DNA of 64,000 nt, from positions 1 to 64,000 of the forward strand of contig CACWTU010000002.1 of the NCBI GenBank assembly GCA_902763885.1, read 5' to 3'. Position numbers and translations under genes: made by a program. This DNA comes from an uncultured Bacteroidales bacterium (GTDB lineage: Bacteria; Bacteroidota; Bacteroidia; Bacteroidales; Bacteroidaceae). Below, one piece after another: positions 22,777 to 63,035 of the stretch (positions within the stretch are counted from its first letter, which is position 1; the number at the start of each line of letters is the position of its first letter). Under the pieces are notes generated by a model that had not been told where the DNA came from, did not search any database, and saw nothing but the letters and a program-made list of their open reading frames with translations.

Positions 22777-23005
22777 GGGGCACATTGGGGACGGTTCTTT
22801 TTGTGCCCCTTGTTCAAGAGAACTTTTGAGGTATCAGTATCTGAAACTACGCGCTTCGCGCTATCCCTCCCACTCCTTCGGAGCGGGCCCCTCCCGTTCA
22901 CAAGCCCACGGGCGGCCATGGTTTCTGATACCGATACCTCAAAAGTTCTGCGCACCTTGGATTATTATCAAAGGGGCACAAAAAGAACCGTCCCCAATGT
23001 GCCCC
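22777..23005. repeat. Nested palindromic element E1 (BIME-like) between GT9 and wbqC-like genes
   Basis: A 229-nt element with perfect 34-nt inverted arms, 22777-22810 and 22972-23005. Each arm is itself a hairpin with ends GGGGCACA and TGTGCCCC around a GGGGACGGTTC core. Inside are second arms, 22819-22847 and 22921-22949, matching at 27 of 29 positions. The loop holds small hairpins such as GCGCTTCGCGC (22851-22861), CTCCTTCGGAG (22873-22883) and GCCCACGGGC (22904-22913). It fits between the two convergent stop codons with 2 nt and 1 nt to spare. I see no protein-coding content. Confidence 0.85.
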
Positions 23006-23006
23006 T

Positions 23007-23612
23007 TTAGAGATAGAGGGGGAACTCTGGTCCCATATTGAAGAGCAGATCAACGGCGCTTAAGTTGGGTAGGAAACCGTGTTTCTGTTTGAATACCTGC
23101 CAATAGGTTTGAGGGGTGGCCGGTTCTTGTACTCCCGGTTCGGCAAGTGGACGTAAATCAATTACATCTTCACTTTTGTGAATGTATGACTGTGTGAGTC
23201 TTAACTCTTTCTTAATCCCCGCCAGCTCCATAATGCGCAGTGTGAGTTCCGTATTGAAATCTATCAGAAACTCATACTTCTTCTCGTAGAATGGGCGGAA
23301 ATCATCCTGGTAATACATGAAGAAGGGACTGTTCATGTAGGCCGATTCCAATGCGTTCCAATGCTGATGGCGCCAGTCTCCGTGGTCGCTTATGCGCACA
23401 TCCTTCATGAGTTGCTTGGGGGTATCGGCCTTTACTATTGGAATGGTAAGCGTCTGGATTCCGCTTGCTGTAGCTATCCTGCATCGGTTGCGGTAAGTCT
23501 GCTTGCAGTAGTTGTCATACTGCTCAATAAGCACATCACCGCCACTGTTGATGGCGGTGAAGAAACTTACGGGTGGCAGATATGCCGAGCAGAGCAGGAC
23601 TGTATCCATCAA
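23007..23612 (-). CDS. WbqC-like protein
   Basis: A 201-residue protein of the WbqC family. Family features include the N-terminal LLCSAYLPPVSFFTAI, the central YRNRCRIATASGIQTLTIPI, the segment DHGDWRHQHWNALESAYMNSPFF and the C-terminal FLPNLSAVDLLFNMG. WbqC proteins occur in O-antigen loci and elsewhere, but the activity is not clearly established. It starts inside the lepB stop with a 4-nt overlap and is the last gene of the dapB-lepB run. Its stop lies 1 nt from palindromic element E1. Confidence 0.88.
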   Translation of the reverse strand: MMDTVLLCSAYLPPVSFFTAINSGGDVLIEQYDNYCKQTYRNRCRIATASGIQTLTIPIVKADTPKQLMKDVRISDHGDWRHQHWNALESAYMNSPFFMYYQDDFRPFYEKKYEFLIDFNTELTLRIMELAGIKKELRLTQSYIHKSEDVIDLRPLAEPGVQEPATPQTYWQVFKQKHGFLPNLSAVDLLFNMGPEFPLYL

Positions 23613-25060
23613 TTATAGTTCTTGACGGCGCGGAACATGCGGTTCCAGCGAATCTTACCCTTCTGTCCCCATTTCTTATCCTGATTGAGCGATAGCCAGA
23701 TGAATACGGGACGGCCTACGATGTGGTCCTCCGGAACGAATCCCCAGTACCTGGAGTCAAGGCTGTTGTGGCGGTTATCGCCCATCATCCAGTAGTAGTC
23801 CATCTTAAAAGTGTAGCTGTGGGCAACCTCTCCGTTTATGACTATGGTGCCGTCCTGCTCAACTTTGAGGTCATTGCCCTCATACACCCTGATAACACGT
23901 TCGTAAACAGGCAGATTCTCAATGTTGAGATCTATAGTCGCACCCTTGGCCGGAATCCATATCGGACCGTAGTTGTCCTTGGTCCAATGGGTATTCATGT
24001 TAAAGGGATAGAGCCAGTCATTACTCCTGAGGTTCTTGCTCGGAATGATAGTGTCAGATATACCGTTCTGGTTCTTTAAGATATCAAGAGCTTGTGCAGT
24101 CATAGGTATCTCAACCAAACCTTTATGGTTCTTGGATTGTTTCAATCCGTCAGAGCTGAGGTCCATCTTCTCTCTGAGAGACTCAGGTATGGGTCTGAGC
24201 AGTCTTACCACATAGTTGAACTGTACTGCGTCAGGCTGTTTCTGGGCAACCCCGTCTGTGTATATGACACCATCCTTAATTTCAAGGGTCTGTCCGGGAA
24301 GTCCTACACAACGTTTTACATAGTTCTCCCTGCGGTCAACAGGTCTGGCTATCTTCTTTCCGTAGATATGCTCATTCTCTTTGATGAGATTGTACCCCAC
24401 ATTGTAGTACAAATCATACACATGGCGCTGTTCCAATGCGGAAAGGGTGTCCAGGTCAACGCTGTAATTCGCTTGCTCACATCTGATCTTGCCGTCGTGG
24501 TATATTTGTGCATAGTAGTCAATCACTTCAGGATTAGTTACTATGGTATCTCCGGCAGGGAAGTTGAATACCACAATCTCATTCTGCTTTATCTTGCCAA
24601 AACCTTTGGCGCGCTCATACGGCCACTGCGGCTTGTCAAAATAGCTCTTGCCGCCTCCGGGAAATGTATTCTGCGTGAGCGGCATGGTGAGTGGGGTCAT
24701 GGGCTTGCGCGGGCCGTAGGCCACCTTGCTTACATAGAGATGGTCACCTATAAGCAGCGATTTTTCAAGAGATGAGGTAGGTATAGCATAGTTCTGAAAC
24801 AGGTATAGATTAACAAAATAGACAGCAACCAATGCAAATACGATAGCATCAATCCAACCCATTATCTGATAGAGGGTCTTGTTCTTGAGGCTCTTCCACC
24901 AGTCCCATCTGATGATGCGGGTGGTGCATGCATCAATCAGGAAAGGTATGACTATTATACCCATCCAACTCTTTACCCAAACCAGGAAAAGAATGTACAG
25001 GACCAGGTATATGGCCGCCTTGATCCACTGTTTCTTTGTTATCTCCTTAAACTGTTTCAT
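23609..25060 (-). CDS. lepB: Signal peptidase I
   Basis: A 483-residue inner-membrane protease that removes Sec signal peptides. Two N-terminal membrane segments precede the catalytic Ser97 in YAIPTSSLEKSLLIGD. The Lys is in RRENYVKRCVGLPGQ, and the box near the C-terminus reads MMGDNRHNSLDSRYWGFVPED. The protein is longer than the E. coli enzyme (324) because of insertions in the periplasmic part, as is usual in Bacteroidetes. It lies 15 nt after dapB, with which it is commonly paired in this phylum. Confidence 0.95.
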   Translation of the reverse strand: MKQFKEITKKQWIKAAIYLVLYILFLVWVKSWMGIIVIPFLIDACTTRIIRWDWWKSLKNKTLYQIMGWIDAIVFALVAVYFVNLYLFQNYAIPTSSLEKSLLIGDHLYVSKVAYGPRKPMTPLTMPLTQNTFPGGGKSYFDKPQWPYERAKGFGKIKQNEIVVFNFPAGDTIVTNPEVIDYYAQIYHDGKIRCEQANYSVDLDTLSALEQRHVYDLYYNVGYNLIKENEHIYGKKIARPVDRRENYVKRCVGLPGQTLEIKDGVIYTDGVAQKQPDAVQFNYVVRLLRPIPESLREKMDLSSDGLKQSKNHKGLVEIPMTAQALDILKNQNGISDTIIPSKNLRSNDWLYPFNMNTHWTKDNYGPIWIPAKGATIDLNIENLPVYERVIRVYEGNDLKVEQDGTIVINGEVAHSYTFKMDYYWMMGDNRHNSLDSRYWGFVPEDHIVGRPVFIWLSLNQDKKWGQKGKIRWNRMFRAVKNYN

Positions 25061-25075
25061 CTACGCTGCAAAAGA

Positions 25076-25837
25076 TTATGAGAGTGAATTCATAAGGTCA
25101 TCCATGCAAAGGAATCCTTTCTTATCTGCTGTATATTCTGCGGCAAGCACTGCACCGAGTGCCAGACCGCTGCGGTCCTTTGCAAAATGGATAATCTTGA
25201 TGAAGTCAGCACTTGAATCATAGGTAATCTCATGTATTCCGGCTATCTCACCCTCGCGGATGGAATCAACGCGGATATCAGACGGTGCATAATCGGTAGT
25301 TCCGGTTACTGTTCCGTCTGCATTGAGTACGGTACCCTTGCTCCAGCCTGTCTTGCGGTCCAGCTGTGAGATGATTCCCTCTGCCAACGTGATGGCTGTG
25401 CCGCTGGGCGCATCAAGTTTGTGGATGTGATGTGTCTCAGACATCCTGACCTCATACATGGGGTATCCGTTCATGAGCTTGGCAAGATATGTGTTGACCT
25501 TTGAGAACAGAGCTACTCCGATGCTGAAGTTGCTTGACCAGAACAGGGTGTTGGCGCCGTCCTTGCAGAGAGCTTTCATCTCATCACGATGCTCCTCCAT
25601 CCAGCCTGTACTGCCGCTCACTACCTTTACACCAGCCTTGAAACATTTCTGGATGTTGTTGTAGGCCTGCGTGGGAGCAGTGAACTCTATTGCCACATCG
25701 GCGTTTTTGAACTCCGGGCTGTCAAAATCGTTGAGATTGTCAATATCAATCTTGCAGACAACCTCGTGACCGCGGGACAGAGCTATCTTCTCTATCTCGT
25801 GGCCCATCTTACCATATCCTATAAGTGCTATTTTCAT
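25076..25837 (-). CDS. dapB: 4-hydroxy-tetrahydrodipicolinate reductase
   Basis: A 253-residue NAD(P)H reductase of the lysine/diaminopimelate pathway. The nucleotide-binding start is MKIALIGYGKMGHEIEKIA. Other markers are SGSTGW and the substrate motif ETHHIHKLDAPSGTA with its active-site His-His and Lys. Length is normal. The upstream Gly/Met-rich protein gene ends 3 nt before its start, so the two are likely cotranscribed. Confidence 0.96.
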   Translation of the reverse strand: MKIALIGYGKMGHEIEKIALSRGHEVVCKIDIDNLNDFDSPEFKNADVAIEFTAPTQAYNNIQKCFKAGVKVVSGSTGWMEEHRDEMKALCKDGANTLFWSSNFSIGVALFSKVNTYLAKLMNGYPMYEVRMSETHHIHKLDAPSGTAITLAEGIISQLDRKTGWSKGTVLNADGTVTGTTDYAPSDIRVDSIREGEIAGIHEITYDSSADFIKIIHFAKDRSGLALGAVLAAEYTADKKGFLCMDDLMNSLS

Positions 25838-25840
25838 ATT

Positions 25841-26389
25841 TTAAAACATGCTTTCCGTGTTCTCCTGAACATGCTGGAGTATGCTGCTGAACTTGTTGTC
25901 AAGTTTGGTTGCCGAAAGTCCTTTCCAGGTTTCATACTGCTGGTCATTGAGGGCTTTCTTGTAGCGTTTTTCAAACTTGGCTATGATCTGGTCGTAAGTT
26001 TTTCTTGCGGCAGCTGTGTCAAACTGAACGTTGGTGGTAGTCTGTGCACCCATCATATTCATGTTTCCACGTCCGCGGAAACCTCCGTTCTGCATCATCT
26101 GAAACTCTCTTACTGACATCTGCAGGTTGCGGCAGATCTCCTCAAACTCCTGAGAATAGAGTTTTATCATCTTGTCAAACTGTTTCTCAGTAAGGTCCAG
26201 AAGACCGGCAACATCCTGTATCCTGGCGTTAGCGATTGAGTCAGACTCCAATTCATAGAAAGGTTTCTGCATCCCCCCCATCGGTCCTCCCATTGGCGGA
26301 CGACCACCCATGGGACGGCCTCCCATAGGCTGTGCTGATGCTACAACTGCTACAAGGCATGCTGCGATTGTAAACAATAACTTTTTCAT
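25841..26389 (-). CDS. Secreted Gly/Met-rich protein of unknown function
   Basis: A 182-residue exported protein. A signal peptide (MKKLLFTIAACLVAVVASAQ) is followed by a Pro/Met/Gly/Arg repeat at residues 21-40 (PMGGRPMGGRPPMGG). The rest is helical and charged (LLDLTEKQFDKMIKLYSQEF, YDQIIAKFEKRYKKALNDQQYETW), reminiscent of CpxP/Spy-like or DUF4890 periplasmic proteins, though the match is loose. A second Gly/Met patch is at about 100-112. It is the first gene of the run leading into dapB and lepB. A periplasmic folding or envelope-stress role is possible but unproven. Confidence 0.75.
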   Translation of the reverse strand: MKKLLFTIAACLVAVVASAQPMGGRPMGGRPPMGGPMGGMQKPFYELESDSIANARIQDVAGLLDLTEKQFDKMIKLYSQEFEEICRNLQMSVREFQMMQNGGFRGRGNMNMMGAQTTTNVQFDTAAARKTYDQIIAKFEKRYKKALNDQQYETWKGLSATKLDNKFSSILQHVQENTESMF

Positions 26390-26464
26390 TTTCTTGTCCT
26401 TAATATTTGGTTGTAAGATTGTTTGAACCTCTTCATAGAGGTATTAAAAGCAGTGTATAAGCAA

Positions 26465-26501
26465 AGATTCTCTTTCCAGCTGCAGACCGGAAAGAGAATC
26501 T
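26465..26501 (-). terminator. Intrinsic terminator of pckA
   Basis: A 13-bp perfect stem (26465-26477 with 26489-26501) with an 11-nt loop. Read on the minus strand it is followed by a short T run (TTTGC). It lies about 34 nt after the pckA stop. Confidence 0.7.
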
Positions 26502-26534
26502 CTGAAAATATTTATCTGAAATTACAGATATTCA

Positions 26535-28148
26535 TTAGAGCTTCGGTCCGGCAGCAACGAGAGCCTTACCAGCTTCATTACCCTCATACTTCTTGAAGTT
26601 CTTGATGAAGCGGCCAGCCAGATCCTTAGCCTTCTCCTCCCACTCTGAAGCGTTAGCGTAAGTGTCGCGAGGATCAAGGATTGCAGGATTTACGTTAGGC
26701 AGAGCTGTGGGAACCTCAAAGTCAAAGAAGGGGATCTTCTTGGTCTGAGCCTTCAGGATGCTGCCATCCAGGATAGCGTCGATGATACCACGTGTATCAG
26801 GAATTGAGATACGCTTGCCGGTACCGTTCCAACCGGTGTTAACCAGATAAGCCTTGGCACCGCTCTTCTCCATCTTCTTAACCAGCTCCTCTGCATACTT
26901 GGTAGGATGCAGCTCAAGGAATGCCTGGCCAAAGCAAGCTGAGAATGTGGGAGTGGGCTCGGTGATACCGCGCTCTGTACCGGCCAGCTTAGCTGTGAAA
27001 CCTGACAGGAAGTAGTACTTGGTCTGCTCAGGAGTCAGGATTGATACGGGAGGCAGTACGCCGAATGCATCGGCTGACAGGAAGATAACGTTCTTGGCGT
27101 CAGGACCTGCACTCTTGCCGTTAACCTTCTGGGCAATCTTGTCGATGTGGTCGATAGGATATGATACGCGGGTGTTCTCGGTAACGCTCTTGTCAGCGAA
27201 ATCGATCTTACCGTTCTTGTCAACAGTTACGTTCTCCAGCAGAGCGTTGCGCTTGATGGCACCGTATATGTCGGGCTCGTTCTCCTTGCTCAGATTGATA
27301 ACCTTAGCGTAGCAGCCGCCCTCCAGGTTGAATACGCCCTCATCGTCCCATCCGTGCTCGTCATCACCGATGAGCAGACGCTTAGGATCGGTTGAAAGGG
27401 TGGTCTTACCTGTACCTGACAAACCAAAGAAGATAGCGGTGTTCTTACCCTGCATATCAGTGTTGGCTGAGCAGTGCATTGAAGCGATACCCTGCAGTGG
27501 CAGATAGTAGTTCTGCATTGAGAACATACCCTTCTTCATCTCACCACCGTACCAGGTGTTGATGATAACCTGCTGACGTGACTTTGTGTTGAAAGCAACG
27601 CAGGTATCTGAGTTCAGACCCAGTTCCTTGTAGTTCTCAACCTTAGCCTTGCTGGCGTTGAAGATAACAAAGTTGGGCTGGAACTTCTCAAGTTCCTCAG
27701 CTGAAGGCTGGATGAACATGTTCTTGATGAAGTGAGCCTGCCATGCAACCTCAACGATAAAACGTACTGCAAGACGGGTAGCCTCGTTAGCGCCGCAGAA
27801 AGCGTCAACTACATAAAGCTCCTTGCCGGAAAGCTCCTTGATGGCAATCTCCTTAACCTTTGCCCAAACCTCCTCTGACATGGGGTGGTTATCGTTCTTG
27901 TACTCATCGGAAGTCCACCATACGTTGTTGTGACTCTCATCATTATCAACGATGTATTTGTCCTTAGGAGAACGACCGGTGAAAACGCCGGTCATAACAT
28001 TAACTGCGCCAAGTTCTGTCTCCTGACCCTTGTCATAACCAGTCAGACCAGCCTTTGTCTCCTCCTTGAAGAGGAACTCATAAGAAGGATTGTGTGCAAT
28101 CACGGTTGAACCGTTGATTCCGTACACGCTTAAATCGATTTTTGCCAT
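26535..28148 (-). CDS. pckA: Phosphoenolpyruvate carboxykinase (ATP)
   Basis: A 537-residue enzyme that interconverts oxaloacetate and PEP with ATP. In succinate-forming Bacteroidales it often runs in the carboxylating, ATP-yielding direction. The kinase-1a loop [16 protein letters not shown] is visible, followed by the metal-site segment [22 protein letters not shown]. The substrate region includes [10 protein letters not shown] and [18 protein letters not shown]. Length is normal. Its mRNA probably begins with a stable hairpin (28188-28234), and a terminator follows the gene. Confidence 0.97.
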
Positions 28149-28187
28149 TTTTGTTATAGTTAGATTGTTATTAAACTCTCAAATTTA

Positions 28188-28242
28188 TAGCCGGTTCCAA
28201 AGGGCTTTTTGAAAGCACCCTTGTAAACCGGCTACAAAAGTA
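28188..28242 (-). promoter_or_regulatory. pckA -7 box and hairpin at the 5' end of the leader
   Basis: On the minus strand TACTTTTG (28235-28242) is a perfect -7 box. Immediately downstream, arms 28226-28234 and 28188-28196 (AACCGGCTA and TAGCCGGTT) pair perfectly, with a second nested stem AAGGG.../...CCCTT inside. The transcript would thus start in or next to this hairpin, which may protect the mRNA or act in regulation. The leader is about 80 nt. Confidence 0.55.
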
Positions 28243-28341
28243 ATTCCTTTTTAAGGGATGGAAAAATCCGGAAAGCCTTTTTACCTCAACTTACTCATTA
28301 TTTAATATTTTGTAACAAAACTGCCTATCGCACTTTGCAAA

Positions 28342-28372
28342 TGACCCAATAGGGACAGCCCCCTTTGGGTCA
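28342..28372. repeat. Palindromic element E5, single unit, at the esterase stop codon
   Basis: A 31-nt unit with inverted ends TGACCCAA and TTGGGTCA around the core AGGGACAGCCCCC. Its outer TGA (28372-28370 on the minus strand) is the stop codon of the esterase gene. The left 17 nt are identical to the start of element E3. Confidence 0.7.
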
Positions 28373-29545
28373 TTTCCACTTGTAGTTGTTGCGCCACAGG
28401 CCGGGCAGGAAGTGGTAGTAGAGCAGATGGCGCCAGGTTACCAGGTCATGGGCACCGGGAGCGTCATCATCATACTCGTGCTTTACGCCAAGCTCGTCCA
28501 ACTGGTTGTGCAGGGTGGTGTGACGGCCCATGAAACCGGTCTCGTACTGGCCTCCGCCCACAAAGAGATAGTCTATCTTATTGTTTACATCGGGCTCCTT
28601 GATGGCGGGAGTCTCTTCAAGGCCGATGGCTGCGCTCAACAGACCGGCCGATCCGAACACGTCAAGGTTGCGGAATGCCACGTACTGGGTCATACGGCCA
28701 CCCATTGACAGACCGCTCAGGGCACGTGCGTGCTTATTCTTGATACAGCTGTAGTGCGACTCCACAAAGGGTATGATATTGTCAATCAGATCCCTCTCAA
28801 TCATGGGGAATGCCAGCTCGGTATGCTGTGGATGGCTGCGGGTAACCATCTGGTCATTGGGGAATACCACAATCATCTCACGGGCCTTACCCTCGGCAAT
28901 CACGTTGTCCAGGATCCAGTTGGCGCGTCCGTGCATGATCCAGGTCTCGGTAAGGTCGCCCGAACCGCCCATGAGATAGAGTACGGGGTACTTTTTCTTG
29001 GGGTTGTAGTTAGCCGGGGTATATACTATCAGATCACGCAGGCCATTTGTCACGTTTGAGTAGTAGTAATGGGTTGTCCATGCACCGTGCGGTACATCGG
29101 GCTTGGGATCATACCATGCGGGCTCGTCGCCGTGAACGAACAGCATGCTGAATGAAGGCATGGCTGCATGGCCGGTGAACTGGTTGTTGGCATCGATGTT
29201 TTGGACTCCGTCAATGATGATGTAGTACAGATAAATCTCAGGAGCAAGCGGGCCGATGGTCAGTTCCCAAACACCGTTATCGCCTTTGGTAAAGTTGGGG
29301 CGCTGACGGTTGTTGCCTACAAACATGGAGCCGGTAAGCTGAACTGTAGTGGCGTTGGGGGCATTCACGCGGAACGTCACGGTGTGGTCATCATGAACCT
29401 CAGGTGAGAGTACACGGCAGTTATAAGGAAGTATGCCCTCAGGCTCAGTGCGCTGAGGGTCATACTGTATGTTCACTCTTGACTGCTGCGCCATCAGGGG
29501 CAGAGCGGCCAGCATGAGAGCTGACAGGAATAGTGAGCGTTTCAT
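28370..29545 (-). CDS. CE1-type esterase with N-terminal CBM48-like domain
   Basis: A 391-residue secreted esterase. A signal peptide (MKRSLFLSALMLAALPLMAQ) precedes an Ig-like CBM48/E-set domain at about residues 45-125 (VTFRVNAPNATTVQLTGSMF, GVWELTIGPLAPEIYLYYI). The alpha/beta hydrolase domain at about 155-391 has the nucleophile Ser280 in ALSGLSMGGR and a likely catalytic His in APGAHDLVTW. The arrangement matches feruloyl/acetyl esterases of family CE1 that remove acyl groups from plant polysaccharides; the exact substrate is not evident. It is translationally coupled (TAATG) to the tandem esterase upstream. Its stop codon is part of element E5. Confidence 0.88.
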   Translation of the reverse strand: MKRSLFLSALMLAALPLMAQQSRVNIQYDPQRTEPEGILPYNCRVLSPEVHDDHTVTFRVNAPNATTVQLTGSMFVGNNRQRPNFTKGDNGVWELTIGPLAPEIYLYYIIIDGVQNIDANNQFTGHAAMPSFSMLFVHGDEPAWYDPKPDVPHGAWTTHYYYSNVTNGLRDLIVYTPANYNPKKKYPVLYLMGGSGDLTETWIMHGRANWILDNVIAEGKAREMIVVFPNDQMVTRSHPQHTELAFPMIERDLIDNIIPFVESHYSCIKNKHARALSGLSMGGRMTQYVAFRNLDVFGSAGLLSAAIGLEETPAIKEPDVNNKIDYLFVGGGQYETGFMGRHTTLHNQLDELGVKHEYDDDAPGAHDLVTWRHLLYYHFLPGLWRNNYKWK

Positions 29546-32044: not shown

Positions 32045-32695
32045 ATGGAAGTAATAGATTTCAACAAACAGAACAGTATTCTGAACCAGTTCATCGCTGA
32101 GATTCGTGATGTAAACATTCAGAAAGACCAGATGCGTTTCCGCCGTAACCTGGAGCGTATTGGTGAGATTATGGCTCTTGAGGTTAGTAAGAAGCTTAAC
32201 TATGTAACCAAGGAGGTTACCACTCCACTGGGTTCCACTACCATCAATGTACCTGAGGAGGATATAGTTCTTGGTACTGTTTTCCGTGCAGGCTTGCCTC
32301 TTCATCAGGGCTTCCATAACTATTTTGACCATTGCGAGAACGCATTTGTATCGGCCTATCGCAAGTATCTGGATGAGGTGAACTTTGACGTTCACATTGA
32401 GTATATGGCTTCACCCAAACTGGATGGCAAGACCCTTATCCTGGTTGACCCGATGCTTGCTACCGGTAACAGTATGTATCTGGCATACCGCGCCCTGCTG
32501 CTTAAGGGAACTCCCGCCAAGGTACATCTGTGCTCAGTTATTGCAGCTCAGGCTGGTGTTGATTACGTGTGCAAGATGTTCCCGCAAGACAATGTAACTC
32601 TCTGGTGCGCCGCAGTGGATCCGGAGCTGAACAGCCACGCCTACATCATCCCGGGTCTGGGTGATGCCGGCGACCTCTGCTTTGGTGAAAAATAG
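32045..32695 (+). CDS. upp: Uracil phosphoribosyltransferase
   Basis: A 216-residue type I phosphoribosyltransferase that salvages uracil to UMP. The PRPP loop is in LVDPMLATGNSM, and the uracil-binding tail is PGLGDAGDLCFG, which separates UPRTase from orotate PRTase. RAGLPLHQG is the usual substrate region. Its stop codon is followed after 2 nt by palindromic element E6. Confidence 0.92.
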   Translation: MEVIDFNKQNSILNQFIAEIRDVNIQKDQMRFRRNLERIGEIMALEVSKKLNYVTKEVTTPLGSTTINVPEEDIVLGTVFRAGLPLHQGFHNYFDHCENAFVSAYRKYLDEVNFDVHIEYMASPKLDGKTLILVDPMLATGNSMYLAYRALLLKGTPAKVHLCSVIAAQAGVDYVCKMFPQDNVTLWCAAVDPELNSHAYIIPGLGDAGDLCFGEK

Positions 32696-32697
32696 TA

Positions 32698-32720
32698 CAA
32701 TTGGGGTCAGGCCCCTTTTG
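32698..32720. repeat. Palindromic element E6, single unit, after upp
   Basis: A 23-nt unit matching the E4 arm at 21 of 23 positions, with the core GGGGTC-A-GGCCCC followed by TTTTG. It starts 2 nt after the upp stop. The hairpin plus T run may act as a weak terminator. Confidence 0.65.
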
Positions 32721-32763
32721 TATCTTTTTCTCACGAAATAGTCCAATTATTAACCCAAAACTT

Positions 32764-35145: not shown

Positions 35146-35148
35146 ATA

Positions 35149-38056: not shown

Positions 38057-38128
38057 GCCTCTGTAGTTCAATGGATAGAACGGAAGTTTCCTAAACTTTA
38101 AATTTGGGTTCGATTCCCAGCGGAGGTA
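38057..38128 (+). tRNA. tRNA-Arg (anticodon CCT)
   Basis: A 72-nt cloverleaf. The acceptor stem pairs 38057-38063 with 38121-38127 (two wobble pairs). The D stem is GTTC/GAAC, the anticodon stem GAAGT/ACTTT with anticodon CCT at 38090-38092, and the T arm TTGGG-TTCGATT-CCCAG. The discriminator base is A and CCA is not encoded. It reads the AGG codon. A perfect 26-nt inverted copy of its 38085-38110 segment lies 70 nt downstream. Confidence 0.95.
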
Positions 38129-38180: not shown

Positions 38181-38223
38181 AACCCAAATTTAAAGTTTAG
38201 GAAACTGGAAACTTCCAGTTTCC
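38181..38223. repeat. Inverted copy of part of tRNA-Arg, joined to a hairpin
   Basis: Positions 38181-38206 are the exact reverse complement of tRNA positions 38085-38110 (anticodon loop through the 5' side of the T arm and loop). Overlapping it, 38200-38223 is a perfect palindrome with 11-nt arms (GGAAACTGGAA / TTCCAGTTTCC) that also contains tRNA-like sequence. No integrase gene is near. Confidence 0.8.
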
Positions 38224-38322
38224 TTTTACCTTTTTTTAATTTGCTAACGCAAATGGGGCGGCCTACCCGGCCGCTCTCGCTCGGGGTCTCGCTCGCCCCA
38301 ATACGGTTGTACGTGCGTAATA
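38224..38322. other. GC-rich non-coding stretch between tRNA copy and terminator
   Basis: No gene is visible. It contains the small hairpin GCGGCC-TACCC-GGCCGC (38259-38275) and an outer GGGGCG/CGCCCC pair around repeated CTCGCTCG. Its style resembles the loop of element E1. Confidence 0.4.
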
Positions 38323-38354
38323 AAAAAAGGATGACCGCGAGGTCATCCTTTTTT
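38323..38354. terminator. Bidirectional terminator after the tRNA region
   Basis: A 14-bp perfect stem (38323-38336 with 38341-38354) with the loop GCGA, A tract on the left and T tract on the right. It would end the tRNA transcript and also read-through from korB. Confidence 0.9.
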
Positions 38355-38357
38355 GGT

Positions 38358-38446
38358 GCAATTGGGGTCTGACCCCTTTTGTCACGTGATTATTTAACAA
38401 TAGTCACTTACTTTAGCAAGTGCAAAAGGGGTCAGACCCCAATTGC
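38358..38446. repeat. Palindromic element E4 (inverted pair) after korB
   Basis: Perfect 24-nt arms, 38358-38381 and 38423-38446, each holding the palindrome GGGGTC-T-GACCCC followed by TTTTG. The 41-nt loop is AT-rich with CACTTA/CAAGTG-type short pairs. The right end is 1 nt from the korB stop codon (38448-38450). Confidence 0.85.
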
Positions 38447-38447: not shown

Positions 38448-39452
38448 CTATTTCACTTCCCAGATGTCATTGGTCTCAAGAAGTTCAGCAAAGTTGTGAT
38501 ACTTCTTGGCGGCCTTGACTTCCTCTATCTGAGCGGTTACTGCATCGTCATAGGTGGGAGCTTCGACGTCGCGGATAACGCCTAATGCTACGGGGAATCC
38601 GTCGCCGTCGCCCATCAGTGCAAGTTTGAGCTGCAGGGTGTTGTCCTGGCAGTGGGCATCGTGTACAAGGATATCCTTAAGGGTAATTCCGTTCTCGCCT
38701 ATCTTGACAATCTTGAGGCTGAAACCGTCCTGCATGAGTCCGAACTCGTTGTTCTCACCGAATACCAGGGGCTGGCCGTGCTTTACGTAGATGGCGTTCT
38801 TGGCGCGACCCTCCTTGTTATATACTGCATCGTGGGTTCCGTTGTTGAATATAACGCAGTTCTGAAGAATCTCGCAGACCGATGCACCCTTGTGGTTATA
38901 AGCGGCCTTGAGGATATCAACGGTGCCGGGAGCATCGGTGGCAACGGCGCGGGCAAAGAAGTGACCGCGTGCGCCAAAGCAGAGCTCTGCGGGACGGAAA
39001 GGATCCTCAACAGTTCCGTAAGGGCTTGACTTACTTACGAAACCACGGGGTGAGGTAGGTGAGTACTGACCCTTGGTAAGACCGTAGATACGGTTGTTCA
39101 GCAGGATCATGTTCAGGTTGATGTTACGGCGGTTGGCGTGGATGAAGTGGTTACCACCGATAGCCAGACCGTCACCGTCACCTGATATTTGCCATACGGT
39201 CAGGTCAGGGTTGGCAACCTTGCAACCGGTAGCGATAGCTGCTGCACGGCCGTGTATGGTGTTCATACCATATGTAGCCATGTAGTGGGGCAGACGGCTT
39301 GAGCAACCGATACCTGATATTACCGCGGTATTGTATGGAGCTACTCCGATTTCGGCCATAGCCTTGTGCAGTGATGCCAGGAAGAAGTGGTCACCGCATC
39401 CGGGGCACCAACGGGGCTGTCCCTTCTTGAAATCTTGTGCTGTATATTCCAT
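38448..39452 (-). CDS. korB: 2-oxoglutarate (2-oxoacid):ferredoxin oxidoreductase beta subunit
   Basis: A 334-residue ThDP-binding subunit. It has the Cys motif WCPGCGDHF, GIGCSSR, and the ThDP/Mg signature GDGDGLAIGGNHFIHANRRN followed by NNRIYGLTKGQYSPTS. A further Cys pair in VCEILQNC may help bind the Fe-S cluster. With KorA it converts 2-oxoglutarate and succinyl-CoA using ferredoxin; in anaerobes it can run reductively. Substrate choice is inferred from the family. It starts 12 nt after korA. Confidence 0.92.
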   Translation of the reverse strand: MEYTAQDFKKGQPRWCPGCGDHFFLASLHKAMAEIGVAPYNTAVISGIGCSSRLPHYMATYGMNTIHGRAAAIATGCKVANPDLTVWQISGDGDGLAIGGNHFIHANRRNINLNMILLNNRIYGLTKGQYSPTSPRGFVSKSSPYGTVEDPFRPAELCFGARGHFFARAVATDAPGTVDILKAAYNHKGASVCEILQNCVIFNNGTHDAVYNKEGRAKNAIYVKHGQPLVFGENNEFGLMQDGFSLKIVKIGENGITLKDILVHDAHCQDNTLQLKLALMGDGDGFPVALGVIRDVEAPTYDDAVTAQIEEVKAAKKYHNFAELLETNDIWEVK

Positions 39453-53922: not shown

Positions 53923-53929
53923 GGCTTCG

Positions 53930-54043
53930 AGATTTTGATAAATTTTGCGAGTGCTAGTTGGGGACGGTTCTCTTTGTGCCCTTGAAAGGGCACAAAGAGA
54001 ACCGTCCCCTGTGAGCGATAGCAAGATTTGATTAAATTTGCGA
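53930..54043. repeat. Palindromic element E2 (inverted pair) flanked by imperfect direct repeats
   Basis: The palindrome has perfect 23-nt arms, 53960-53982 and 53987-54009, with core GGGGACGGTTC as in E1. The two flanks are related to each other: 53930-53950 and 54024-54043 agree at about 18 of 21 positions and both end in a TAAATTTTGCGA or TAAATTTGCGA sequence. The right copy is the -7 box of the RNase H gene. A target duplication on insertion is one reading. Confidence 0.75.
54033..54040 (+). promoter_or_regulatory. -7 box directly before the RNase H start codon
   Basis: TAAATTTG is a perfect -7 box ending 4 nt before ATG 54045 (TTTG-CGAC-ATG), nearly the same arrangement as at the GH2 gene. 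Confidence 0.45.
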
Positions 54044-54044
54044 C

Positions 54045-54677: not shown

Positions 54678-54679
54678 TC

Positions 54680-56530: not shown

Positions 56531-56534
56531 GGTC

Positions 56535-57485
56535 TTACTCTTTTCCGGCTTTTTTCTCCTTATAGGCGGGGTGTGTGGCAATCCACTCCTTATATCCCTC
56601 TTTAGTGCGTTTCCAGCGGTTATGGGTCCAGAGCCACAGTTCAGGGCATTCGCGGATATTATCTTCAAGCAGACGCATGTATTTCTCCGTCACAGCAAAT
56701 TCCGGCAAGTCGCCTGTGTGTTCAAAAACAAGCTGAATGTCACAACGGTAATAGCCACGGCGTTTTCTTGTTATGTGCATGTACCAGATTTCCAGATCCA
56801 GTTTTCGGGCCAGGCGTTCAGCACCTGTAAAAACGGGTGTCTCCCTATTCAGGAACCTGGTCCAATAATGTATGTTCCACCACAAAGGGACCTGATCGGC
56901 AATCATTCCGATAAAGTATTTCTTGCCTTCTTTCCTGTAACCTAAAAAACGTCGCATGACCTGCTCCATAGGTATGCTTACTGTTCCGTATCTGTTGCGC
57001 AGCTTGTACATGAACAGTTCTATGGTGGGATTTTCCAGCCTGTGATATACCTGACCTCCTACAAAGTCATTCACATCCGTGAAGAAAAGGTTCATGGAGG
57101 GTATCCATTCCCAATTGCCTACATGGCCTAAATAACCTATACCTGACCTGCCGTTTATGGTCTCCTGCACCAGCTTGTCCATTCCTGTGAATTCCATGTG
57201 ACGCAGTATCCAGCGCTTGCTTGCAGATACGGTCTTGAGAGCCTCGACAAACTGACACGCAAACTGATAGTAAAAGCGGCGTTCCGTACGTCGCAGCCAT
57301 CTCTTGCTCTTGTCAGGAAAAGAGAGGGACAGGTTGTTGCGTACAATGCTCTTTCTGTAGCGCAGGGGGGGAAAGATATACATTAACAGCCATATGATAT
57401 CGGAGAACAGATACAACACCGGCAGCGGGAGCAGTGAGAATATCCAGACGATACCAAAAAGAACCGATGAAAGAAATTTAGCCAT
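56535..57485 (-). CDS. LpxL/HtrB-like lipid A acyltransferase
   Basis: A 316-residue enzyme that adds a secondary acyl chain to lipid A. It has an N-terminal hydrophobic segment (LSSVLFGIVWIFSLLPLPVLYLFSDIIWLL) and the HX4E catalytic motif in GHVGNWEW. Other features are the family's IADQVP-containing stretch and ETPVFTGAERLARKLD. Length is normal for the family. It follows the PAP2 gene by 2 nt, which groups it with lipid A phosphate processing. Confidence 0.9.
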   Translation of the reverse strand: MAKFLSSVLFGIVWIFSLLPLPVLYLFSDIIWLLMYIFPPLRYRKSIVRNNLSLSFPDKSKRWLRRTERRFYYQFACQFVEALKTVSASKRWILRHMEFTGMDKLVQETINGRSGIGYLGHVGNWEWIPSMNLFFTDVNDFVGGQVYHRLENPTIELFMYKLRNRYGTVSIPMEQVMRRFLGYRKEGKKYFIGMIADQVPLWWNIHYWTRFLNRETPVFTGAERLARKLDLEIWYMHITRKRRGYYRCDIQLVFEHTGDLPEFAVTEKYMRLLEDNIRECPELWLWTHNRWKRTKEGYKEWIATHPAYKEKKAGKE

Positions 57486-57487
57486 AT

Positions 57488-58753
57488 TCAGAATGTGAAA
57501 TTAAACCGGGCCCCCATTACAAAGGACCTCCACACTTTATCATAATAATCAAGCCCGCCGTGTACTGTTATGCTTGAGAACGATGATGTCCTGACGGTCA
57601 TACCTACGTTTGCATAGCAGTGAAAACCTTTGGGAATATTCCATTCCAACGGCTGATCCTGATACTGGAAACTGTAGCTGTTGGTGCTGGGTGAGTAACC
57701 GGCAATAGCTTGCCCGTTTATGCTTAACATGCTTATTACCGGAATGTCCATATCCAATCCAGCTCCCAAGGTGTAAACATCAGTGACGCTCCCTTGAGGC
57801 GGCAGGTACAGGTCATCTGAACCGGTCCATTTCATCTGGGTGAGGCCGGCACGGATGGTGGGGCCTATGTACCATGGCATCCAGGAGGCGTCTATTCCTA
57901 TGGAGCAGGCCGGCTTGGCATTCGGGTTGCCATATCCTCCGGATGTAAAGATATCGGCCCCTATGCTGTAGTCGGAGTACAGTCCGAATTTCCATTCCGG
58001 CATATCTTCAATTTCAGGAACCACTATGGACTTTTTCAGGCCGTGGTCGCCAAAAAGGATATCGGTAAGGTCATATGCAAGTTCAGTTGAGAATATGCCT
58101 AAGGCTGCTCCGGCCAGGACATCCGAAGCCCAATGACGGTTTGAGATAACCCTGAATATGCCTGTGGTTGCGGCCATGCCGTATCCGGCTACGCTTATCC
58201 ATGGGCTTACAGTCTCTCCGTACTCTTTATGGAGCATATGTGCGAACATGAATGCGGTAGCTGTATGTCCCGATGGGTAAGAATTGAACGCACGGCCGTC
58301 AGGACGTTCTCTCTTGAATGTATATTTGGCAGCCTGGACAACGGATAGCAGGATTGCTCCCGATGCAATATCCGCCGTTATCATGCGGGGCCAGTCACTG
58401 CGGCTTTCAAGTCCGCCAGCCTTAAGTGCATATAGTAATATGCCAGGTGACAATTGCAGTATATTGGCTGACCACATGCCCGGTGATTTTATGCCGCCTG
58501 TCTTTACAATGCGTTTGTCAAGAAGATAGTCATCAAACAGGATACTGGCGGTAAGCAGACCCGCGGGTAAAAAAATCCGTTGCGTGAAGGATTCCGGCTT
58601 GTAGGCTATACTGGCAGTATCCTTACCTAGAGACCGGTTCAGCGTGTAGTCAATCTCACTTAGAGGCTTATAGGGTCTGAAAGGGTTGATTCCGGCACGG
58701 GTTTCTGCTAGGGGAAGCAACAGTATGGCTGATATGAGCAGGAATCTCTTCAT
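57488..58753 (-). CDS. PAP2-family phosphatase with C-terminal beta-barrel-like region
   Basis: A 421-residue exported protein. After a signal peptide, residues about 60-235 are a PAP2 (type 2 phosphatidic acid phosphatase) domain with all three motifs: KYTFKRERP, SYPSGHT and SNRHWASDV. The last 170 residues alternate polar and hydrophobic positions with many aromatic and Gly residues, and end in Phe (GARFNFTF), as in outer-membrane barrels. The phosphatase may act on lipid A or undecaprenyl phosphates. The barrel reading is inference. It overlaps the next gene upstream by 4 nt. Confidence 0.85.
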   Translation of the reverse strand: MKRFLLISAILLLPLAETRAGINPFRPYKPLSEIDYTLNRSLGKDTASIAYKPESFTQRIFLPAGLLTASILFDDYLLDKRIVKTGGIKSPGMWSANILQLSPGILLYALKAGGLESRSDWPRMITADIASGAILLSVVQAAKYTFKRERPDGRAFNSYPSGHTATAFMFAHMLHKEYGETVSPWISVAGYGMAATTGIFRVISNRHWASDVLAGAALGIFSTELAYDLTDILFGDHGLKKSIVVPEIEDMPEWKFGLYSDYSIGADIFTSGGYGNPNAKPACSIGIDASWMPWYIGPTIRAGLTQMKWTGSDDLYLPPQGSVTDVYTLGAGLDMDIPVISMLSINGQAIAGYSPSTNSYSFQYQDQPLEWNIPKGFHCYANVGMTVRTSSFSSITVHGGLDYYDKVWRSFVMGARFNFTF

Positions 58754-59805
58754 TTCATGTTTTTGAGAGTCTTCTTCATCCCCAATCTGTATTTTACCGT
58801 TATAAGCTGTTGGTTATGTATCGGGGTGTCAGGCGTGAAATGCAGATTCCAGCGGAACCCGAACTGCACGTTTTCATCGGCCACAAACTGAATTCCCAGT
58901 TCAGTCTTGTTATAGAACGTATGGTTATAGAATGGGTCACTGCGATGGAAAAGGAGGCCTGCTTCCGGATCATCCATGAACGGTTGTTGTGCATCTCCTG
59001 CAAATACGGTGCTTTTTATGTCAAACATCTTCCAACCTATCTGTACGTCACCCAAGAATCCTATGGGGCTGTGCCAATTGTCTTCTTTTCGGCAACGTAC
59101 CAGCGAACATAGTACTCCTGCATTGGCTTTCAGTACCAGTTCTGGTGATAATACTCCTGTCAGGTTCAGGCTCAGATAGGGGTTGAACTGGAACTTCTCA
59201 TAGATGTAATGATCCGGTTCCTTGGGTTTGGCAAAATGTGTCATGGCTACGAACCATCCTCCGCCAATCACTTTTTTGCCAACCTGACCGTCCCACACAA
59301 TGCGGAATGCCTCGCGCTGGGTTTCTGTCTGACGGCTGAACCAGTTGCAGTATAGCTCTGTCTGCCAGTTCCAGTCATAGTACTGTATCAATGTTCCTCC
59401 TATTGTGGGCTCAAAGAATGCGATGGAATCATACAGGAAAGCATCGGGTAACTGACGCTGTAAATTGTTGCGCGGTATGGCTCCAAAGTATGAAATCCAG
59501 TTTTCACCGCCATATTTGTAGTAAAGTATGATATCCGGATCAATGCTCTCCTTGGAGCCATATTCCCAAATTTTTGAAACTCCCGCCATAAGAGAGTGGT
59601 TGCCGTGGTCAGCAGTTGCATAATCAATACCAATCTCAGGCATGATGCGCATTCCGTAGATGGTCTGAGGGAGCATGTCTTTCTTGAACTCACGGTTGTC
59701 AAACAGGCCGTCAAAGGCTATGTCAGCGCGTAGTCTCTGGCTGTATCCATGAAAGCACAGAAGTGATAGTGCTATGGTTAAGTATAGTTTGAACGGTTTG
59801 CTCAT
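58750..59805 (-). CDS. Predicted outer-membrane protein of unknown function
   Basis: A 351-residue protein with a signal peptide (MSKPFKLYLTIALSLLCFHGYSQ) and many amphipathic, aromatic-rich strands (for example GGTLIQYYDWNWQTELYCNWFSR and VQFGFRWNLHFTP), which suggests a beta-barrel. I do not recognise a family. It is the first gene of a run with PAP2 and the LpxL-like acyltransferase, overlapping PAP2 by 4 nt, so a role in outer-membrane lipid handling is possible. A -7 box is at 59828-59835. Confidence 0.75.
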   Translation of the reverse strand: MSKPFKLYLTIALSLLCFHGYSQRLRADIAFDGLFDNREFKKDMLPQTIYGMRIMPEIGIDYATADHGNHSLMAGVSKIWEYGSKESIDPDIILYYKYGGENWISYFGAIPRNNLQRQLPDAFLYDSIAFFEPTIGGTLIQYYDWNWQTELYCNWFSRQTETQREAFRIVWDGQVGKKVIGGGWFVAMTHFAKPKEPDHYIYEKFQFNPYLSLNLTGVLSPELVLKANAGVLCSLVRCRKEDNWHSPIGFLGDVQIGWKMFDIKSTVFAGDAQQPFMDDPEAGLLFHRSDPFYNHTFYNKTELGIQFVADENVQFGFRWNLHFTPDTPIHNQQLITVKYRLGMKKTLKNMK

Positions 59806-59827
59806 AAAAACTTATCAACAGATTGCG

Positions 59828-59835
59828 CAAAGTTA
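59828..59835 (-). promoter_or_regulatory. -7 box of the OMP-PAP2-acyltransferase run
   Basis: TAACTTTG on the minus strand, 22 nt from the start codon at 59805; perfect -7 match without a clear -33. Confidence 0.5.
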
Positions 59836-59880
59836 CCTATTTATAATGCATTTACCATTTTTTAGGCCGCATAAAATTTG

Positions 59881-59888
59881 TATCTTCG
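59881..59888 (+). promoter_or_regulatory. Probable -7 box of the ABC exporter gene
   Basis: TATCTTCG, one mismatch from TAnnTTTG, 25 nt before the start codon at 59914. The same TATCTTCG form is used at the tRNA promoter. Confidence 0.45.
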
Positions 59889-59913
59889 CGCATCAAACAA
59901 ACGTTTATAGTCA

Positions 59914-61755
59914 ATGAAAGAATTATTTGCATTCTTGGGACGTTTTGTCAGACCCTATCGCCGCAATCTGGTGGGTAGTGTCATATTCAATCTTCTGTCA
60001 GCATTCCTGAATGTGTTTTCATTCGTTCTCATTGTACCTATTCTTAAGATCCTGTTCCAAATTGAAGATGCAGAGACTTATCAATACATTGAATTGACCG
60101 GAGCAGAGATTGGTGATTACTTTGATATCCTGAAAAACAATTTCTATTGGTGGGTAACTGAATTCATAGATAAATATTCAGCATCCAGGACCTTGCTTCT
60201 TTTAGGATTGATCCTGATTGTGATGACTTTCTTCAAGACAGCCTGTTACTATGCCTCAACGGCAGTCATGGTTCCTTTACGCACCGGCTTGGTACGTGAT
60301 ATGAGAATGAAGGTGTATGACAAGATTCTCAGTCTCCCCATGAGTTTCTTCTCAAAGGAGCGCAAGGGTGATATCATTACACGCATGAGCAATGATGTTT
60401 CAGTGATAGAGGATTCAATTTCCCAGTCTCTCGACATGCTTATCAAAAATCCCATTCTTGTCATTGTCTATGTCGGAACCTTGATAATAACAAGTTGGCA
60501 ACTGACCGTATTCACTGTTGTGATAGGTCCGTTGATTATCTGGATAATGGGAGTGATAGGACGTAAACTTAAGGCTCAGTCTCTTGAGGTGCAGTCGCGT
60601 TGGAGTGATACCATGTCACAGCTTGAGGAAACTCTTGGAGGTCTGAGAGTAATCAAGGCTTTCCTGGCAGAAAAGAAAATGTCCGGCCGTTTTGCTGAAA
60701 AGAGCAATCTGCTGCGCAAGGCAAGCAACCGTGTAAGTCTCAGACAGTCACTTGCACACCCTGTCAGTGAATTCCTGGGCACGGCGCTGATAGTGATAGT
60801 ACTGTGGTTCGGTGGAACTCTGATTCTCAGCAACAAGGCAACAATTGACGCATCCACATTCATCTACTATCTTATCATTCTGTATAGTGTAATCAATCCT
60901 GTCAAGGATATTGCAAAAGCCAGTTATGCCATCCCTAAGGGGCTTGCCTCCGTGGAAAGGGTTGACAAGATCCTTCTGGCAGAAAACAACATAACCGATT
61001 GTGAGAATCCCGTATCCATTGATGAATTCCAGGGTGAAATCAAATACAATGGCGTAAATTTCTCATATGAGGACGGACGTGAGGTTCTGCATGACATTAA
61101 TCTTACCATTCCACGTGGCAAAACCATTGCTTTGGTTGGTCAGTCCGGGTCAGGTAAGTCAACTATGGTTGATCTGCTGCCCCGTTTTTATGATGTTGAC
61201 GAGGGTTCGATAACAATAGACGGAACGGATATACGCAATTTGTCCCTCAAATCACTTCGCAGCCTCATGGGTAATGTCAACCAGGAGGCTATCCTGTTTA
61301 ATGACACATTTTACAACAACATAACGTTTGGAGTCAAGAATGCCACACGTGAACAGGTAATAGCTGCTGCCAAGATCGCCAATGCACATGATTTCATCAT
61401 GGAGACAGAGAACGGATATGACACCAACATAGGTGACCGCGGTTGCCTGCTTTCCGGTGGACAGCGTCAGCGTGTGAGTATTGCCCGTGCCATACTAAAG
61501 AACCCGCCTATCCTGATTCTTGATGAGGCTACAAGTGCACTTGACACAGAGTCAGAGCGTTTGGTTCAGGAGGCATTGGAGCGTCTTATGAAAGACCGTA
61601 CAACAATAGCTATTGCTCACCGCCTTTCTACCATCAAGAATGCAGATGAAATCTGTGTCTTACATGAGGGAAAGATTGTTGAGCGTGGTACTCATGAGCA
61701 GCTTATTGCTTTGAACGGCTATTACAAGAGGCTTCATGATATGCAGCAGTTGTAA
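59914..61755 (+). CDS. MsbA-like ABC transporter (fused permease and ATPase)
   Basis: A 613-residue half-transporter expected to work as a homodimer. Residues about 15-330 hold six membrane helices. The ATPase domain starts at about 365, with Walker A GQSGSGKST, signature LSGGQRQRVSIARA, Walker B ILILDEATSALD and the switch His in AIAHRLSTIKNADE. Type IV exporters of this kind flip lipid A-core (MsbA) or other lipids and drugs. The neighbouring lipid A genes favour a lipid substrate, which remains inference. Confidence 0.92.
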   Translation: MKELFAFLGRFVRPYRRNLVGSVIFNLLSAFLNVFSFVLIVPILKILFQIEDAETYQYIELTGAEIGDYFDILKNNFYWWVTEFIDKYSASRTLLLLGLILIVMTFFKTACYYASTAVMVPLRTGLVRDMRMKVYDKILSLPMSFFSKERKGDIITRMSNDVSVIEDSISQSLDMLIKNPILVIVYVGTLIITSWQLTVFTVVIGPLIIWIMGVIGRKLKAQSLEVQSRWSDTMSQLEETLGGLRVIKAFLAEKKMSGRFAEKSNLLRKASNRVSLRQSLAHPVSEFLGTALIVIVLWFGGTLILSNKATIDASTFIYYLIILYSVINPVKDIAKASYAIPKGLASVERVDKILLAENNITDCENPVSIDEFQGEIKYNGVNFSYEDGREVLHDINLTIPRGKTIALVGQSGSGKSTMVDLLPRFYDVDEGSITIDGTDIRNLSLKSLRSLMGNVNQEAILFNDTFYNNITFGVKNATREQVIAAAKIANAHDFIMETENGYDTNIGDRGCLLSGGQRQRVSIARAILKNPPILILDEATSALDTESERLVQEALERLMKDRTTIAIAHRLSTIKNADEICVLHEGKIVERGTHEQLIALNGYYKRLHDMQQL

Positions 61756-61776
61756 GTATTTTTAAATCACTATAAA

Positions 61777-62961
61777 ATGGTAAAAATCGGTACTCCGCTC
61801 ACTAAGGTTGCCAAGAAGGCACTTCTGTGCGGCTCAGGTGAACTGGGAAAGGAGGTTGCAATTGAATTGCAGCGTTATGGTGTTGAGGTTATAGCCCTTG
61901 ACAGGTATGAGAACGCCCCTGCCATGCAGGTGGCTCACCGCAGTTATGTTCTGTCTATGCTTGACGGCGCACGTCTGCGTGAGATTATTGAGAAGGAGAA
62001 GCCTGATATGATTATTCCGGAGGTTGAGGCTATCGCTACTCCTGAATTGGTAAAACTGGAGAAAGAGGGTTACAACGTTATTCCTACCGCCAATGCCACA
62101 TTCCTTACAATGAACCGTAAGGGCATACGCCAGTTGGCTCATGAGAAGCTGGGCTTGCCCACATCAAATTATCGTTTTGCCGCTACACGTGAGGAGTTTG
62201 ATGCTGCCATCAAGGAGATAGGTACTCCCTGCGTTGTTAAGCCCATCATGAGTTCTTCAGGTCACGGTCAGAGTGTTTGCAAGACTCCTGCTGATGCTGA
62301 CGCTTCATGGAAGATTGCCCAGGAGGGCGGTCGTGCCGGAGGTGGTGAGGTTATCGTAGAGGGATTCGTAAAGTTTGATTATGAGATTACCCTGCTTACC
62401 GTACGTCACAGCGGCGGTACCACATTCCTGAATCCTATAGGTCACCATCAGGTGGACGGTGACTACCGTGAATCATGGCAGGCACAGCCTATGACTGACA
62501 AGGCTCTTGCGCAGGCTCAGGATATCGCTAAGAAGATTACTGACGCTCTGGGCGGTTACGGTATTTTTGGCGTTGAGATGTTCGTTTGCGGTGACAACGT
62601 ATTGTTCAGTGAGGTCTCACCGCGTCCGCATGACACCGGTATGGTTACTATGATTTCACAGGATCTCTCAGAGTTCGCCCTGCATGCACGTGCCGTGCTT
62701 GGTCTGCCTATCCCCAAGATCAATTTCTACGGTCCCAGTGCATCAAAGGCAATCGTTGTTGAGGGCGATACCACAATGGTTGAGTTTGAGAATCTGGATG
62801 AGATCCTTTCTGAGCCCGATGTTCAGATTCGCTTGTTCGGCAAGCCGTTCATTAAGGGCCACCGCCGTATGGGTGTGATTCTGGCTCGTGCAGAAAGTGT
62901 GGAGAAGGCTCTTGAGAAAGTAGAGCGTGCTTACGCCAAACTGAAAGTTAAAGTTTATTGA
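61777..62961 (+). CDS. purT: Formate-dependent GAR transformylase
   Basis: A 394-residue ATP-grasp enzyme that makes formyl-GAR from formate, ATP and GAR in purine synthesis, in place of the folate-dependent PurN. Features include the N-terminal [23 protein letters not shown], the ATP-grasp segments [16 protein letters not shown] and [17 protein letters not shown], and the metal site [28 protein letters not shown]. Length is normal. It lies 21 nt after the ABC gene. Its TGA stop is directly followed by element E3. Confidence 0.97.
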
Positions 62962-63035
62962 TGACCCAATAGGGACAGTCCCCCTGTGCCGTTTTTTTTC
63001 AAAAATGGCACAGGGGGACTGTCCCTATTGGGTCA
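62962..63035. repeat. Palindromic element E3 (inverted pair) spanning convergent stop codons
   Basis: Perfect 29-nt arms, 62962-62990 and 63007-63035, each with the palindrome GGGAC-A-GTCCC. The 16-nt loop is T-rich then A-rich and can extend the stem. The left end abuts the purT stop; the outer TGA of the right arm (63035-63033 on the minus strand) is the stop codon of the sulfatase-like gene. Confidence 0.9.

Follow-up and report, generated by a model that had tools for sequence, protein, structure and literature searches.

A 64,000-nucleotide stretch from an uncultured Bacteroidales bacterium (contig CACWTU010000002.1, positions 1 to 64,000; hereafter the window) contains six palindromic loci, E1 to E6. 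We consider them very probably to be members of three co-resident families of elements resembling repetitive extragenic palindromic (REP) sequences and their hairpin-forming doublets (REPINs), each family most likely having been multiplied in trans by its own HUH Y1 transposase. A first-pass annotation of the same DNA had proposed REP singlets and pairs of the kind called bacterial interspersed mosaic elements (BIMEs), and this reading is now supported by the dispersal of the units, their pairing, the Y1 transposase genes adjoining them and the variability of their sites among related genomes.

In the genome assembly (2.71 Mb in 27 contigs, 90.9% complete), the core GGGGACGGTTC has 122 matches, 61 on each strand (reversed-pattern control 1 + 0). 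The core GGGGTCNGRCCCC has 74 (40 + 34; control 0), which amount to 42 units since the pattern GGGGTC[AT]GACCCC matches both strands, and AATAGGGACAGYCCC has nine (6 + 3; control 0); a wider pattern, GGGGWCWGRCCCC, is found 91 + 88 times. The annotation had named as fatal to its proposal the case that the six loci are the only copies in the genome, and these numbers show that they are not. Among 106 distinct GGGGACGGTTC contexts in the own-genome stretches examined, 64 hold an identical GGGGCACAAA-core-TTTTTGTGCCCC unit. Adjacent [AG]GGGACGGTTC units at most 400 bp apart stand in +/- orientation in 50 of 53 cases. The 98 clusters drawn from sampled own-genome stretches lie between convergent (44), co-directional (35) or divergent (5) open reading frames (ORFs), inside an ORF (7) or at a stretch edge (7). 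Convergent neighbours thus account for 44 of 84 classified clusters, compared with 6 of 46 adjacent ORF pairs in the window, where 34 are co-directional and 6 divergent by a crude ORF calling (Fisher p 1e-5); this enrichment may reflect either survival or target choice. Like REPs and BIMEs in the broad sense, the elements are scattered palindromes of 20-40 nt, present in high copy number, mostly intergenic and arranged as singlets and inverted pairs.

A trans-acting Y1 transposase encoded outside the window had been predicted, and a search of the genome with the PF01797 (Y1_Tnp) profile returned three genes over the cut-off and none within the window; one of them is encoded near 344.7 kb of the contig that also holds the window (C2). 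All three are single-copy genes encoding proteins of 263-269 aa, two of which are 51 and 53% identical to the first, and share the motifs NHVH, FQ and YIHQNP. Each stands beside the same kind of ends. The gene L003 has GGGGACGGTTC pairs on both sides, L001 has GGGG[AT]C[AT]G[AT]CCCC units on both sides, and L002 has GGGACAGTCCC on its downstream (right) side only. This arrangement fits the several coexisting subfamilies that the annotation had suspected. The only family listed by NCBIfam was REP_Tyr_transpos (54, 60 and 55 bits, below its cut-off of 80), and a match to the helix-turn-helix (HTH) family HTH_23 occurred in one of the three proteins (20.9 bits, below 24.6). The HUH fold is predicted: a model of L118, a near relative 91% identical to the L003 protein, has a predicted local distance difference test score (pLDDT) of 88 and a helical C-terminus. 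Its best match in the PDB is 4er8, TnpAREP with a REP hairpin (E 6e-8; template modelling score 0.69 by target and 0.45 by query). A sequence search of solved structures listed no transposase up to E 1.

The association between core and transposase extends to relatives of the enzyme. The best 80 of 186 transposase relatives in named genomes were kept; their assemblies are of Bacteroidales and of the Prevotella type, with titles that in many cases point to the rumen or gut, plus one Clostridia, one Atopobiaceae and one Gordonibacter. In a motif-free ranking of 8-mers, GGGACGGT and GGACGGTT were joint top, occurring in 32 of 65 flanked loci compared with 3 in control boxes. Inverted repeats of at least 12 nt common to both flanks, found de novo at the 80 loci with both flanks, contained the core in 43 of 48 cases, and one mononucleotide shuffle of each of the 80 loci gave none. 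The pattern [AG]GGG[AT]C[AG]G is present in 69 of 81 loci, 57 of them with GGGG. Among the 81 loci with a unit the octamer reads GGGGACGG in 28, GGGGACAG or GGGGTCAG in 23 and GGGGTCGG in six, the rest being other variants; these octamer counts used a search expression that already fixes [AG]GGG[AT]C, and the unbiased support comes from the motif-free 8-mer and repeat searches. Within 250 bp upstream, 36 of 68 loci have a core with a stem of at least 6 bp; three control boxes gave 6, 4 and 6 of 68. The stem sequence itself varies but its complementarity is kept, because 54% of 57 unselected units pair with themselves over at least 6 bp, as opposed to 7% of cross-pairs. A GT[AG]G foot was seen in 3 of 128 units and in 3 of 128 random boxes. 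The REP/BIME reading therefore stands in the broad sense and not for canonical GTAG-footed REPs, the units being nearer to the GGGGWSAS terminal inverted repeats (TIRs) of TIRYT genes.

For a quick phylogeny, whose support values are from the Shimodaira-Hasegawa-like approximate likelihood ratio test (SH-aLRT) only, merging proteins that do not differ within residues 6-200 reduced 115 rows to 89, of which one, with fewer than 151 aa, was dropped. Of the 88 remaining rows, 81 carry a core label; 7 of the 89 loci have no core class. Core class changes 10 times on this tree, compared with a mean of 35.8 and a minimum of 27 in 2,000 label shuffles, the classes being set by regular expression with a few borderline rows (L181, L234, L235). 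The genome's own GGGG[AT]C[AT]G[AT]CCCC gene falls into a starred set of nine rows, all of the same class; the row that follows, L123, has the GGTTC class. For the own GGGGACGGTTC gene the starred set has six rows, among which L120 is the one exception to the GGTTC class, and the own GGGACAGTCCC gene belongs to a group of seven with mixed classes (support 93, not starred).

Within the window, the following elements were delineated.

E1 left unit, 22776-22811, plus strand: GGGGACGGTTC core in a GGGGCACA/TGTGCCCC stem, with a perfect 36-nt arm.
E1 nested internal repeat, 22824-22950, no strand assigned: recurs in the genome, in some places between REP units and in others without them.
E1 right unit, 22971-23006, minus strand: exact reverse complement of the left unit; abuts the stop codon of the minus-strand ORF 23007-23612.
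E5 single unit, 28337-28378, plus strand: GGGACAGCCCC core enclosed by the stem AAATGACCC/GGGTCATTT; runs into the 3' end of the minus-strand ORF 28370-29545.
E6 single unit, 32693-32732, plus strand: GGGGTCAGGCCCC core in a TACAA/TTGTA stem; directly after ORF 32045-32695.
E4 left unit, 38358-38381, plus strand: GGGGTCTGACCCC core.
E4 right unit, 38423-38446, minus strand: perfect complement of the E4 left unit.
E2 pair, 53940-54029, no strand assigned: GGGGACGGTTC core; imperfect outer stem and perfect arms at 53960-53983 and 53986-54009.
E3 pair, 62962-63035, no strand assigned: GGGACAGTCCC core; perfect arms of 29 nt, or of 35 nt if one mismatch is allowed; the neighbouring ORFs are convergent.

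All six loci reported by the first-pass annotation are present, and core matches lie far above chance: four for GGGGACGGTTC (0.01 expected), five for GGGGTCNGRCCCC, which equal three units (0.01 expected), and four for GGGACAGYCCC (0.07 expected), one of the latter (39413-39423) being inside ORF 38448-39452 and outside the six loci. E5 and E6 are single units, as described. Of the four loci called perfect head-to-head pairs, E3 (29 nt) and E4 (24 nt) hold as given, and the arms of E1 and E2 had to be corrected from 34 to 36 nt and from 23 to 24 nt, respectively. E1 is moreover no plain pair, as its two units enclose another, nested repeat of about 125 bp. In single-stranded DNA folding, the four stretches holding E2-E5 reached z-scores of -5.7 to -14.6, one E1 unit -3.5 and a 40-nt stretch around E6 -3.3. 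The GGGGACGG octamer of the E1 unit occupies the loop that the GGGGCACA/TGTGCCCC stem closes. The three cores look like variants of one modular design, an outer stem plus a GGGG core, rather than unrelated families.

The middle of E1 (22824-22950) is itself a nested palindromic repeat, whose innermost GC-rich cassette of about 80 bp recurs elsewhere wrapped in other stems (L248, L249, L250, L251), at L249 once inside the apparent loop of a terminator hairpin. Directly before E4, the region 38221-38356 holds GC-rich palindromic stretches and a AAAAAAGGATGACC/GGTCATCCTTTTTT hairpin (by eye). Further upstream, the 26-nt middle of a tRNA-like stretch (38085-38110, by eye) has an exact inverted copy 70 nt downstream at 38181-38206.

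The occupancy of the six sites varies among relatives. We compared 19 relative loci for E1 and 38 for E2-E6, the latter from two sets of 19 that cover part of the 36 genomes, with flank identities of 67% to 100%. In 49 resolved site-by-genome comparisons, 32 lacked an element, six had an orthologous element, six had another palindrome of this design, four had another repeat or hairpin and one was unread. For E1 (8 resolved), five sites are empty (G028, G025, G009, G006, G032) and in three a different pair takes the place of E1 (G033, G026, G007). For E2 (12 resolved), seven are empty, two have the orthologous pair (G026, G033) and three have an unrelated repeat; this repeat, in G028, G034 and G019 (L293, L296, L305), reads GGAGTCC..GGACGCGACCGGAGGGAGC... 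For E3 (11 resolved), nine are empty and two have other pairs (G030, G027). E5 (7 resolved) is missing from five sites and is replaced by another unit in G007 and another hairpin in G009. For E6 (8 resolved), four sites have the unit, two of them with a TACCA instead of the TACAA stem, and four are empty; a possible target repeat, AAATAGT, stands on both sides of E6 and occurs once in the empty G006 site. E4 (3 resolved: two empty, one with a long unread stretch) is the weakest case, the left flank of G003 and G006 matching over only 72 of 300 nt. Some of the empty sites hold a few unrelated bases.

Within the genus, 22 of 37 genomes (own included) encode at least one transposase at E 1e-10, and core counts, strands summed, range from 0 to 206 for GGGGACGGTTC and from 0 to 189 for GGGGWCWGRCCCC. 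Copies are more numerous in genomes where a transposase of the matching flank type is present, in tests uncorrected for kinship and made on incomplete assemblies: the median is 93 (10 genomes) versus 2 (27 genomes) for GGGGACGGTTC (p 1.5e-4), and 92 (13 genomes) versus 1 (24 genomes) for GGGGWCWGRCCCC (p 0.0013). The codons for FQGRF in the body of the transposase gene read AGGGTCGGTTC; the typing in the genus uses flanks only. Besides the kinship and incompleteness just mentioned, several observations weigh against multiplication of each family by its own transposase. Four genomes (G002, G012, G028, G034) yielded no transposase at E 1e-10, yet carry 47-112 core matches (both patterns summed), and in G029, which has 112 GGGGACGGTTC matches, the search detected a gene of the other type alone. 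Conversely, a gene flanked by palindromic cores is accompanied by 0-2 GGGGWCWGRCCCC matches in G001, G020 and G024, and G004 and G036 have a GGTTC-type gene but 5 and 14 GGGGACGGTTC matches. In the genome itself, the match at L002 is one-sided, and L003 has one further downstream unit of another core class, GGGGACTGTCCCC. Finally, an empty site was either never filled or lost its element, so that some could be deletions, and no clean target-site signature or duplication rule was found across the six sites, apart from the possible case of E6.

Taken together, we favour amplification by co-resident transposases. Each unit would make a hairpin on a single strand, its core resembling GGGG[A/T]C[A/G]G; the unit or an inverted pair would fold in single-stranded DNA during replication, and the transposase would bind the hairpin through the core, nick with the tyrosine of YIHQNP and rejoin the copy at another place. 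Mobilisation would be in trans, with each enzyme presumably selecting its strand and acting on its own family only. More tentatively, the geometry may be that of a REP turned inside out, in which the enzyme reads a near-fixed GGGG[AT]C[AG]G in the loop or upper hairpin and the stem drifts by paired changes, new families arising by a change of core or stem. One clade would then span the range from IS-like behaviour (Prevotella-type relatives with a unit on each side and few copies) to REPIN-like behaviour (the own genus, with pairs and hundreds of copies).

The position of so many clusters between convergent ORFs is also what ordinary bidirectional intrinsic terminators would show, had gene ends converged on similar hairpins, and E4, with TTTT after its core, scores terminator-like. 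As the sole explanation this is contradicted by the empty sites; exact sequences in many copies, the existence of three families and their presence beside transposase genes also speak against it, and we regard it as highly improbable. The annotation had itself named conservation at the same sites across distant genera, as for ordinary terminators, as an outcome that would refute its proposal; most resolved orthologous sites are empty or replaced instead. In addition, the separate AAAAAAGGATGACC../..GGTCATCCTTTTTT hairpin stands beside E4 (by eye, outside the five sites listed in the terminator scoring), and two relatives without E4 have a hairpin of this kind there (by eye). The elements may nevertheless have a secondary terminator effect.

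Somewhat less improbable, but still unlikely, is that the units are miniature inverted-repeat transposable elements (MITEs), non-autonomous derivatives of a full insertion sequence (IS) that moves as a unit with its transposase. Several Prevotella-type relatives, among them L144, L150, L156 and L169, have the IS-like layout of one inverted unit on each side of the gene, and E1-type elements, with about 125 bp between their two units, recur as composites. Against this, three diverged single-copy transposases face hundreds of units, isolated single units exist (E5, E6), and PMC6006769 reports low copy numbers for class 2 Y1 genes other than those of subclass 2.3. That the repeats are remnants of recombination or gene conversion in which the transposase has no role finds an echo in E2 of G026, whose two arms differ jointly from those in the window, the pattern expected of concerted evolution; given that core classes track the transposase tree and that counts are higher in genus genomes with the matching transposase, we consider this barely credible.

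Among 18 genomes reached through the transposase relatives, the pattern GGGGWCRGKTC was well over control in G042-G045 and G052 and near control in most others; not all 18 are new, since the places in G043 and G045 coincide with those in G009 and G003. The occurrence of similar sequences in unrelated genomes, which the annotation had mentioned, is only weakly borne out: of 296 genomes of the phylum, four contain GGGGTCWGACCCC, as do four of the 140 genera. One of the four is the own genome, the sole sampled member of its genus, and the other three have 1, 4 and 1 copies. A link to phages was considered and rejected, as TTGGGGTCWGACCCC occurs in 73 viral contig stretches but most contexts are without the outer stem and appear incidental by eye. 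None of these 73 stretches encodes a transposase relative (E 1e-3), among them L385, which carries four TTGGGGTCWGACCCC copies.

Among known systems, the elements can be filed as REP-like in the broad sense, nearest to TIRYT and distinct from canonical GTAG REPs. With the REP/REPIN-RAYT systems of the GTAG kind (E. coli, Pseudomonas, Stenotrophomonas) they share intergenic palindromes in singlets and inverted pairs, a family-specific transposase beside units, a frequent place at gene 3' ends and a predicted fold closest to TnpAREP 4er8; they differ in lacking the GT[AG]G hairpin foot and in having a conserved octamer inside the hairpin. IS200/IS605 elements have hairpin ends too, and the same HUH Y1 chemistry is expected, whereas here the Y motif is of the NP type of class 2 and single-copy genes accompany a large excess of non-autonomous copies. 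The TnpAY1 subclass 2.6, mostly from Bacteroidetes according to PMC6006769, resembles our enzymes in its Bacteroidales relatives, in the YIHQNP form (listed under 2.6 in Table 1 of that paper) and in atypical flanking structures copied elsewhere; the enzymes fall outside it with 263-269 aa as opposed to a median of 179, and FQ as opposed to WQ.

Judged by sequence, the enzyme looks nearest to the kind called TIRYT (in TIRtron elements) or subclass 2.1, which probably correspond to each other (PMC6006769). The Y1 HUH domain with NHVH and the FQ motif is shared. The C-terminus is helical in the model and may be HTH-like, and the flanking inverted repeats carry a motif that resembles GGGG[AT][CG]A[CG], its exact form fitting 23 of 81 loci with a unit (GGGGACAG, GGGGTCAG). 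Differences lie in the Y motif (YIELNP or Y[IV]HLNP there, YIHQNP here), in the core, whose seventh position is most often G here (GGGGACGG), and in the hundreds of copies, several families beside their own genes, empty sites and a core that tracks the protein tree. Repeated TIRs of this kind are already in print: Di Nocera 2013 (PMC3733652) describes TIRs with GGGGWSAS, some families of which are repeated in dimers or clusters. A PubMed Central (PMC) search for the core sequences gave unrelated papers only, and the literature searches turned up no description of the amplification, of a correspondence family by family or of the core/stem rule. For subclass 2.1, PMC6006769 (2018) reports that automatic and manual searches found no REP-like sequences near the genes. 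Our findings give REP-type repeats and a strong transposase-repeat correspondence to what appears to be this large Y1 class. With three enzymes and three families in one genome, and many relatives with other cores and stems, the specificity of REP recognition becomes directly testable, and the clade may show a path from IS-like to REP-like behaviour.

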